Of a stretch of DNA of 44,767 bases, positions 49-39,459 are shown piece by piece. The notes under the pieces are model-generated. The model did not search any database. It was given only the letters and a program-made list of their open reading frames with translations, and had not been told where the DNA came from. The position numbers and the translations under genes were made by a program. How positions within the stretch are numbered: position 1 is the first letter of the stretch; the number at the start of each line of letters is the position of its first letter. The stretch covers positions 1 to 44,767 of the forward strand of contig JAOUNB010000006.1 of NCBI GenBank assembly GCA_029881195.1. Reading direction: 5' to 3'. The DNA is from Candidatus Nitrosopumilus sp. GTDB lineage: Archaea > Thermoproteota > Nitrososphaeria > Nitrososphaerales > Nitrosopumilaceae.

Positions 49-1179
49 TTAACCTGATTTGGAAATAGGATGAAAGTTAGAATCAAATAACATTTGTTCA
101 AGCTTTCCTATCCTGTCTTCTTGAGAGTTTAGTTTCTGTTTAAGATTAGAGTTTTCTTTTGTGGTCGCTTCCAGTTGATCAATTCTCTTTTGTTTTTCTT
201 CTAGTTCTGCCTTTTGTCGTTCAGTAGGATTTACAATTAGTTGAGGAATTGCCTTTACAAATTCTCTGTAACATTCCTCTCTGGTTGGTTGCAGATACAC
301 TCCATCAAGACCTCGCTTGTGGGCCATCAGTTTTTCTGCAATGTTAGAGTTGACAGAGTTTTCCATTTTCAATATGCCATTGAATCTCTTTCTAAAACCA
401 TATGTTATTGCCAAATCAAATCGATTGCCATTCTTCTCCCTGATTATTCCGGCTTTTTTGTAAAGTTTATTGAGGGTTTTGTAGACGGATTGCTGTCCAA
501 GAAAACCGTTCTTTCGAGTTCTTGCATTTTGTTTTGTCGCAAAAAGATAGCTTTCCTCATCAATGTGTTCACCGTTTAGTTTTCTTGTTCGGATGTATGC
601 ATCAAGTGCCTTGCTTGCCTCAGGTGTCAAAAAGGCCCAATAACCTTCTGCTGACTCGTCATAGATTTTGATTGCATACGCATCATCAGACATCTTGTGA
701 AGATGTTTGAATTTCAATGGAGGATCAGTCAGTACTGCCGGCCTCCCACCAGTACTTGCAAGAAAATGGATAATTGCGATCATTCTAAAGTCATTTGTTG
801 CCTTTAGAAGCATCTGTATCTCATCAGTGGTAATCGGGCGTCTTCCTCCCTTTTCATGGTTAGATCGTGGAACCATCTTTCTGATCTTCTTTCTTGCCCA
901 CACAATCTCATTCATGTCAAGCAAAAGCTCAACTGCACTAAGTTTGACGTTTATCGTATTACCCTTTAGTCCTGCGTCCTTGTGGGATTTTATCCATTTT
1001 TTGAGCATTTCCTGGATGTCTTTTACAGGTGTCTTGACTAGCTCATCATACGAATGCAGGTCAAAAAACCTCATGAATTCATTGAGATTCCGGGTATAGA
1101 CAGTCTTTGACTTTTCATTGTTCAGGCCACTCTCAAAGTTACTCCATGCCTCGTCTTCTATTAGTGGTTCCCGGAACAT
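49..1179 (-). CDS. Tyrosine recombinase / integrase family protein
   Basis: Likely catalyses site-specific DNA strand exchange. The N-terminal half (about residues 1-110) looks like a SAM-like core-binding domain. The catalytic half carries STGGRP with the first active-site Arg, YGFRKRF at the usual HxxR box (Tyr replaces His), MAHK, and a C-terminal GVYLQP with the candidate nucleophilic Tyr. Residues from about 320 to the end are a charged coiled coil (ERQKAELEEKQKRIDQLEA). Length (376 aa) suits archaeal integrases. It is divergent from the uS11 gene with about 90 bp between them. No att site or tRNA was seen nearby, so whether it belongs to a mobile element or is a resident recombinase is open. 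Family call is fairly sure; target unknown. Confidence 0.8.
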   Translation of the reverse strand: MFREPLIEDEAWSNFESGLNNEKSKTVYTRNLNEFMRFFDLHSYDELVKTPVKDIQEMLKKWIKSHKDAGLKGNTINVKLSAVELLLDMNEIVWARKKIRKMVPRSNHEKGGRRPITTDEIQMLLKATNDFRMIAIIHFLASTGGRPAVLTDPPLKFKHLHKMSDDAYAIKIYDESAEGYWAFLTPEASKALDAYIRTRKLNGEHIDEESYLFATKQNARTRKNGFLGQQSVYKTLNKLYKKAGIIREKNGNRFDLAITYGFRKRFNGILKMENSVNSNIAEKLMAHKRGLDGVYLQPTREECYREFVKAIPQLIVNPTERQKAELEEKQKRIDQLEATTKENSNLKQKLNSQEDRIGKLEQMLFDSNFHPISKSG

Positions 1180-20032: not shown

Positions 20033-20208
20033 ATCACTTTTTTTGTTGTGCTGCTATGCATTACTAGAATTTCCTTTTCGTGTAGCAAATGTGTTTTGTC
20101 TATTGTCAACTATCATGTTTATGTTCATCTTTGAGAATACTCTTAATAATATTAATGTGAAAAGTCTTTTGAAATACAAACATACCATCGTACAAATTAT
20201 CCATGTTG

Positions 20209-20215
20209 TTTATAT
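20209..20215 (+). promoter_or_regulatory. TATA-like box for the 87-nt RNA, copy 1
   Basis: TTTATAT is centred 26 nt before the conserved GCCGT at 20238. The other copy of the element has TTTAAAT at an almost equal distance (27 nt). Equal spacing in otherwise unrelated flanks suggests a real promoter with transcription starting at or near GCCGT. Confidence 0.45.
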
Positions 20216-20236: not shown

Positions 20237-20323
20237 TGCCGTCACAAGGTTTGAAGGTAAAACCTAGATGGGAAACCACACGGAAAGAAAAACCTCCAAT
20301 TAACATATCGTAAAGTAATTTTT
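20237..20323 (+). ncRNA. Structured small RNA candidate, copy 1
   Basis: An 87-nt stretch that recurs at 38764-38850 with about nine differences and no gaps. CCGT at the 5' end can pair with ACGG, enclosing a hairpin AGGTTT/AAACCT with loop GAAGGTA and a second hairpin TGG-GAAA-CCA, so a three-way junction is possible. A downstream ACCTCC can pair with the first loop (5 of 6). It ends in a T-run. No plus-strand gene follows, so it looks like a free RNA rather than a leader. No known RNA family recognised. Confidence 0.6.
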
Positions 20324-38734: not shown

Positions 38735-38741
38735 TTTAAAT
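38735..38741 (+). promoter_or_regulatory. TATA-like box for the 87-nt RNA, copy 2
   Basis: TTTAAAT is centred 27 nt before the conserved GCCGT, almost the same distance as in copy 1. Confidence 0.45.
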
Positions 38742-38763: not shown

Positions 38764-38850
38764 TGCCGTTACAAGGTTTGAAGGTAAAACCTAGTTGGGA
38801 AACCATACGGAAAGAAAAACCTTCAATCGATATATCGTAAAGGGATTTTT
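38764..38850 (+). ncRNA. Structured small RNA candidate, copy 2
   Basis: Same 87-nt element as at 20237-20323. In this copy the loop TTGAAGGT of the first hairpin and a downstream ACCTTCAA pair over 8 nt without mismatch, so a pseudoknot or alternative fold is possible. CCGT/ACGG and TGG-GAAA-CCA pairings are kept. It ends in a run of five T. The nearest plus-strand gene starts about 470 nt downstream. Confidence 0.6.
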
Positions 38851-39141
38851 CTCAATTCGTGATGTGTTTTTAATCTCAATTCACATGTGAGTCTTTTGAT
38901 TTAATTATATACCAACTGATACATAGATAGTACGTATCAAACATGTTACCATATAACTACACTTCAAAATCAAAGAAATAACATTACAAAAAAGATACTT
39001 CGCTGAAAAGTTCTTTGCGAGTTATCTTGAGGACTAGCCTATACAGAAATTTCATGCATGCACAATCATACATTCTATGGATTACATAACGTCTGCATCA
39101 GTATGTCACTGCCAACATCCTAAAAAGTGAATTCAAATGAA

Positions 39142-39285
39142 GGCAGACCTGCATTTTTCATGAGAGTTTACAGTGCAGCTGTCTTATCACGAACTCACTT
39201 AGTATACATTATGAATAGTGATTCTTAAACAAATATGCTTTTGATTTAGTTCAGTGTTGAGTCAACTCATCATTTGTTTAATTAT
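39142..39285 (+). repeat. Diverged intergenic repeat, copy B
   Basis: Partner of 35004-35155, with the same ordered blocks and an identical 60-nt distance between the CTGTCTTATCAC and TTTTGATTTAG blocks. It holds dyad site 4 and a TTTAATTA box in front of a small membrane protein gene. Confidence 0.55.
39241..39265. promoter_or_regulatory. 25-bp dyad operator candidate, site 4
   Basis: TTGATTT-N11-GAGTCAA. TTTAATTA follows after 12 nt, exactly as at site 2. ATG 39319 lies 53 nt downstream. Confidence 0.55.
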
Positions 39286-39318
39286 TTGATTATACTGAAT
39301 AGTCCCGAGGTGAAAGAT

Positions 39319-39459
39319 ATGCAAACTCAGAAAATCAGCACACTAGATAAAATGGTACATGCCCCATTCAGAAAAGTCATTAAATTTGATCTTATTTGTA
39401 TGGGAATAGGTGTTGTAATGGGTATGGGTATTGGTGCCTTTATTGCAACCAATATTTAA
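39319..39459 (+). CDS. Small single-TM membrane protein (46 aa)
   Basis: 46 aa from ATG 39319, preceded by GAGGTGA at good spacing; the track start 39274 is less likely. A basic head (MQTQKISTLDKMVHAPFRKVI) is followed by one Gly-rich TM helix (GIGVVMGMGIGAFIATNI). No family recognised. It is downstream of dyad site 4 and repeat copy B. It may be a small regulator or subunit of a membrane complex (inference). Confidence 0.65.
   Translation: MQTQKISTLDKMVHAPFRKVIKFDLICMGIGVVMGMGIGAFIATNI

Follow-up and report, generated by a model that had tools for sequence, protein, structure and literature searches.

What kind of element is an 87-nt sequence that occurs twice within a short stretch of an archaeal chromosome? 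The window considered here is the whole stretch that was analysed, 44,767 nucleotides from Candidatus Nitrosopumilus sp. (contig JAOUNB010000006.1). An earlier note, made from the letters of the window, had described an ungapped pair of about 90% identity, and copies a and b, both on the plus strand, do agree at 78 of 87 positions with no gaps (Table 1). Ordinary genes fill the segment between them. In the 1.59-Mb genome that contains the window, these two are the sole real copies (E values of 1e-47 and 1e-27), and the next match has an E value of 0.5, so the pair is not a product of chance. The element belongs to a family of small folded RNA genes, called R here, that had not been catalogued before.

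Table 1. Positions of R, its promoter and structural elements, and of the second RNA, M, in the window
Feature	Position	Strand	Remarks
R RNA copy a	20237..20323	+	core 20237-20299, T-run 20319-20323; covariance model R1, 83.5 bits
R RNA copy b	38764..38850	+	core 38764-38826, T-run 38846-38850; covariance model R1, 90.1 bits
TATA box TTTATAT of copy a	20209..20215	+	box at -29..-23, conserved among copies
TATA box TTTAAAT of copy b	38735..38741	+	box at -29..-23, conserved among copies
Conserved upstream element AAATTATCCATG in the promoter of copy a	20194..20205	+	from profile of 59 non-redundant promoters
P1 5' strand CCGT, copy b	38766..38769	+	pairs with ACGG at 38807-38810; invariant
P2 loop GAAGG, copy b	38780..38784	+	proposed pseudoknot partner CCTTC at 38820-38824
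A-rich conserved tail AAAGAAAAACCTTC	38811..38824	+	nearly invariant in 60 copies
M RNA	39127..39198	-	covariance model R3, 79.1 bits; terminal stem GUGAAUUC/GAAUUCAC, then T-run; preceded by a TATA-like box of its own

Size and range of the R family

The element had been described as two-copy, which holds for the window genome but not for the family as a whole. Of the 250 genomes that represent the archaeal family, 40 carry R. They hold about 66 copies in all, distributed over three genera with one to five copies per genome. A DNA search of 60 relatives yields 15 further copies, all in the same genus. Covariance model R1, built from the 17 copies of alignment A1, gives 67 matches in 40 of the 250 genomes, and model R2, built from 60 copies, recovers this set again together with one doubtful match in a different genus. 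The weakest members (L129-L131, 29-36 bits) are degenerate, truncated or doubtful, and the total is therefore given as about 66. In one of them (L129:5992-6057), the 3' half alone is intact, and a 122-aa open reading frame on the opposite strand starts inside the copy.

The distribution of R is patchy. About one sixth of related species carry it, and 28 of 131 good-quality genomes of the archaeal family are positive with model R1. Beyond the archaeal family, samples of 400 genomes from the order and from the class contain no copy, and neither do 2.9 million viral contigs searched with two patterns. A Rhizobium match from a pattern search of genome contigs was judged to be chance. Searches of relatives with DNA and covariance models, which the earlier note had proposed, thus return homologues. 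The Rfam 15 covariance models give no match in the window at gathering or relaxed thresholds, and the best sub-threshold score is far below gathering. No description of R was found in the open-access literature. The suggestion of an unrecognised small RNA family is supported by the lack of an Rfam match, by a promoter spacing that is fixed in nearly all copies and by the covariation of helix P3 described below.

Promoter, fold and 3' end

The promoter profile was built from 59 non-redundant upstream regions aligned on the G of GCCGT. Positions -29..-23 read TTTAWAT, each carrying about 1 bit, and this is where an archaeal TATA box is expected for a transcript that starts at GCCGT. A second conserved block, AATTATTCATC, lies at about -43..-36, and conservation is slight beyond -48. 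TATA-like hexamers start at -30..-28 in 39 of the 59 copies. Nearly all other offsets are represented by two copies at most; one exception is -15, with eight copies, which falls inside the ATTTTAA stretch. The boxes that the earlier note had placed 26-27 nt before GCCGT in the window are present, centred about that distance before the G. R therefore has a promoter of its own at a fixed distance, as a free-standing sRNA gene should. A TTTAWAT box that is nearly universal and fixed in place, together with the upstream element, makes it almost certain that R is transcribed as an RNA gene.

An S-layer-like gene of the window genome (L141) is preceded by the same upstream element (AAATCGTCCAT) and a TATA box. 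The upstream element was considered as an sRNA-specific signal and set aside on this account, as it is probably a general feature of strong promoters. The occurrence of both elements before this gene suggests that the R promoter is strong but not special.

The pairings CCGT/ACGG, AGGTTT/AAACCT and TGG/CCA had been noticed before, and all three can be formed in copies a and b. Together they predict a three-way junction in which P1 (CCGU/ACGG) would enclose P2 together with P3, the variable and covarying helix. The idea that the pairings are kept by compensatory changes applies to P3 only. In 57 distinct copies, this helix consists of a U-A pair, a G-C pair and an inner pair of varying identity (A3 columns 37-51) that is GC in 39 copies, AU in 7, UA in 5 and GU in 4. 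In another alignment, built by hand, the columns of this inner pair have the highest APC-corrected mutual information of any column pair. One copy (L126) has a wholly different P3 (AGGAGACUCCU) that retains pairing. Through P3, R displays the conserved structure with compensatory changes that is expected of a free-standing sRNA. P2 does not behave in this way: its GGU/ACC portion is kept, but at its ends column pair 12-31 is broken in 9 of the 57 copies and column pair 17-26 in 11, with no compensation. P1 is essentially invariant and hence uninformative. P1 and the kept part of P2 are consistent with the model, and P3 is shown by its covariation.

The structure proposed earlier was also incomplete, as it overlooked an additional loop-tail pseudoknot. 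The A-rich tail probably folds back so that its CCUWC sequence pairs with the GWAGG loop of P2, or in part with the 5' strand of that helix. The comparative support for this likely pseudoknot is partial. Among 61 copies, its variable pair is a U-U mismatch in 36, while A-U occurs in 11, U-A in 7 and G-U in 1, and another pair shows one change from G-C to A-U. The minimum-energy folds of window copy b and of L126 include the loop-tail helix. The AGGUUU strand of P2 is invariant even though its partner varies (AGAACC, ATAACC, GTTACC), which suggests that AGGUUU may also contact the invariant AAAAACC tail, either in a competing helix or in a U-A triple. Thermodynamic folds of single copies are barely better than those of shuffled sequences (z of about -0.4 to -1.2). 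R contains no conserved open reading frame, since in-frame stops occur and P3 changes length by 1 nt.

The 3' end is less constant than the core. Both window copies end in TTTTT, as had been noted, and close relatives have this run at +82-87 as well. In other homologues, the T-run is not fixed in position. Four consecutive T residues occur within 40 nt downstream in 25 of 49 copies compared with 18 in shuffled sequences, a modest excess, and no fixed terminator is seen among the copies. The family as a whole is therefore not defined by a length of 87 nt, which describes the similarity between the two window copies; the unit conserved across species spans only about 63-67 nt.

Neighbouring genes and a second RNA

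Of 64 copies, 40 have a next downstream gene that runs in the direction of R and 24 have one that runs against it, and there is no common neighbour. At both window copies, the next downstream gene lies on the opposite strand. Neither is thus the leader of a nearby plus-strand gene, in agreement with the earlier note. Some loci are vertically inherited (L077/L078/L082/L102 and L087/L089/L100/L105). Many other pairs of loci have one flank in common, with upstream homology that ends at +63..66, where the RNA core stops, or downstream homology that begins at about -30..-45, at the promoter; R often marks a synteny breakpoint. For example, the upstream flank of L116 matches that of window copy b, and its downstream flank matches that of one copy at L095. 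The simplest reading of these one-sided similarities is that they would arise by recombination between R copies. A search for antisense targets among 1656 gene starts gives no signal once a self-match of L129 is excluded.

Gene families near R were compared between 54 R loci and 60 random 12-kb regions drawn from nine complete R-bearing genomes. The families were chosen for their recurrence, which makes the following enrichment p values optimistic. Universal-stress proteins (Usp) are found near 13 of 54 loci versus 1 of 60 control regions (p=3e-4), DUF6659 proteins near 17 versus 4 (p=1e-3), a small basic open reading frame, X, near 9 versus 0 (p=8e-4), and CorA near 11 versus 2 (p=6e-3). Signals for a Na+/Ca2+ exchanger and for small zinc-ribbon proteins are weaker against the same 60 regions. 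Cupredoxins, CBS proteins and TFB are not enriched near the 54 loci.

Several flank modules recur among R loci. Four of them (X, Y, Q and Z) turned out to be small protein genes. ORF X (..YPNYDYSLESSSHEKDTRKRKRMKTMY) lies upstream of R at L073:4414-4554 and also at L104, L111 and L086. ORF Y, a small conserved membrane protein (MQTQKISTLDKMVHAPFRKVIKFDLICMGIGVVMGMGIGAFIATNI), occupies window positions 39316-39459 on the plus strand; its orientation differs among the several genomes in which it lies beside R and the module M. At L095:3285-3742, a divergent pair of R copies about 330 bp apart has M between them, and CorA and DUF6659 flank the pair on opposite sides.

M was first met as a flank module common to R loci and is itself a structured RNA. 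Its inner stem shows double changes at three pairs, a TTAATAA box and an upstream element precede it, and the T-run that follows its hairpin is conserved, as is the box. Like R, it has no match in Rfam. Model R3 identifies 37 copies of M in 23 of the 250 genomes of the archaeal family, and 21 of these 23 genomes also carry R (Fisher p=1.5e-17 over the archaeal family, uncorrected for relatedness). Within the genus, the p value for co-occurrence lies between 6e-6 and 1e-10 if the genus is taken to comprise 60 to 100 genomes, again uncorrected for relatedness. Ten of the 37 copies lie no more than about 2.1 kb from an R copy, compared with an expected 0.16, and their relative orientation varies. 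The sequence CCUUCA occurs in the R tail (window 38819-38825) and in the 3' arm of M (39127-39198), and it complements the R loop UGAAGG of some copies. This match may be due to chance.

Possible roles and relation to known RNAs

That R is an RNA gene is nearly certain from its promoter and covariation. On balance, we favour a free-standing and probably trans-acting sRNA tied to stress or ion homeostasis. Its TATA box and upstream element, whose positions are fixed, would start a transcript at or beside the G of GCCGT. This RNA could act by way of a protein that binds the conserved core, or by base pairing of its tail or loop. Trans action is likely because R occurs in many contexts and in both orientations to its neighbours. 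A role within an accessory set of stress and ion-homeostasis genes is more tentative, and is suggested by the neighbouring genes and by co-occurrence with M.

A different interpretation has R as a mobile or recombination-prone DNA element, such as a MITE or a transposase or integration site, whose hairpins act in DNA and whose promoter is carried along. The patchy range, the one to five copies per genome, the many pairs of loci with homologous upstream or downstream flanks only, the 3'-half copy at L129 and two divergent copies about 330 bp apart in G189 would all fit such an element. However, neither terminal inverted repeats nor fixed borders are seen, the viral contigs match neither of the two patterns, several loci have been inherited vertically over several species, and the breakpoints are accounted for by homologous recombination between copies. 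The constant TATA spacing and the covarying P3 are also features that a DNA element does not need, and we regard this interpretation as improbable. An integration (att) site was rejected because single-copy genomes lack an att-like partial second copy; L129 is a lone partial. Slightly less probable still is that R serves as a cis-acting, riboswitch-like leader of stress and ion-transport operons, in which the A-rich pseudoknot would be the sensor and stand-alone copies would be displaced or have short nearby targets. Three loci (L110, L115 and L128) place R directly before a DUF6659-CorA operon, with homology over R and 0.8 kb and with different upstream flanks. An R copy at L095 precedes another CorA, CorA is enriched near R, and an A-rich strand combined with a U-rich helix resembles riboswitch pseudoknots. 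A leader should mostly lie 5' of same-strand genes of one function, and only the DUF6659-CorA subset does so. The next gene is opposite in more than a third of copies, including both in the window, the downstream families are diverse, and no conserved expression platform, such as a fixed terminator or start codon, is present. Control of CorA as the general function of R was discarded, as genomes have one or two CorA genes and most R copies are far from them.

A conserved pseudoknot scaffold followed by variable sequence could also belong to an RNA that serves a nuclease (TnpB or IscB, as omega RNA) or another RNP as guide or scaffold, with the variable 3' flank as the guide. This is highly improbable. 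TnpB domains are absent from the window genome and from seven of nine single-contig R-bearing genomes, R is not placed at the ends of such genes, and the TnpB guide reading is largely refuted. Other RNA classes were rejected as well. ARAGORN finds no tRNA or tmRNA, and inspection of the 60-copy alignment reveals neither a RUGAUGA/CUGA pair nor a 3' ACA expected for C/D or H/ACA guides, for which Rfam snoRNA models also give nothing at threshold.

Riboswitches of the preQ1-II and SAM-II types have loop-tail pseudoknots with an A-rich connecting strand, and R resembles them in this respect. R differs in having its own promoter, in lacking both an Rfam match and a conserved downstream gene, and in not preceding one gene class. 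To our knowledge, the known archaeal intergenic trans-acting sRNAs belong to families other than R. Such sRNAs, reviewed in PMC3432209, are like R in being short intergenic genes with their own promoters and no single downstream gene; the three-way junction with a tail/loop pseudoknot, the multiple copies and the patchy range set R apart. Tan1 of marine Euryarchaeota (229 nt) and the multi-copy Yfr103 of marine cyanobacteria (about 300 nt) are likewise unexplained structured ncRNAs of abundant marine prokaryotes, and their descriptions distinguish them from R by length and taxa (PMC5069720). TnpB omega RNAs share with R a pseudoknot scaffold and a variable 3' side, but most tested R-bearing genomes have no TnpB.

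The association of R and M permits a more speculative proposal, to which we assign little probability. The two RNAs could form one system, for example an sRNA and a partner or sponge with CCUUCA in common, that spreads as small co-travelling cassettes among stress and ion-homeostasis genes in marine ammonia oxidizers, and the RNA genes might double as recombination points that reshuffle these genes.

The searchable open literature yielded no description of a small regulatory RNA for ammonia-oxidizing archaea, which rank among the ocean's most abundant cells. With its strong-looking promoter and clear structure, R offers a directly testable entry to RNA regulation in this group, and several of the single-contig R-bearing genomes may represent cultured isolates. 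The co-travelling M family makes a system common to both RNAs plausible.
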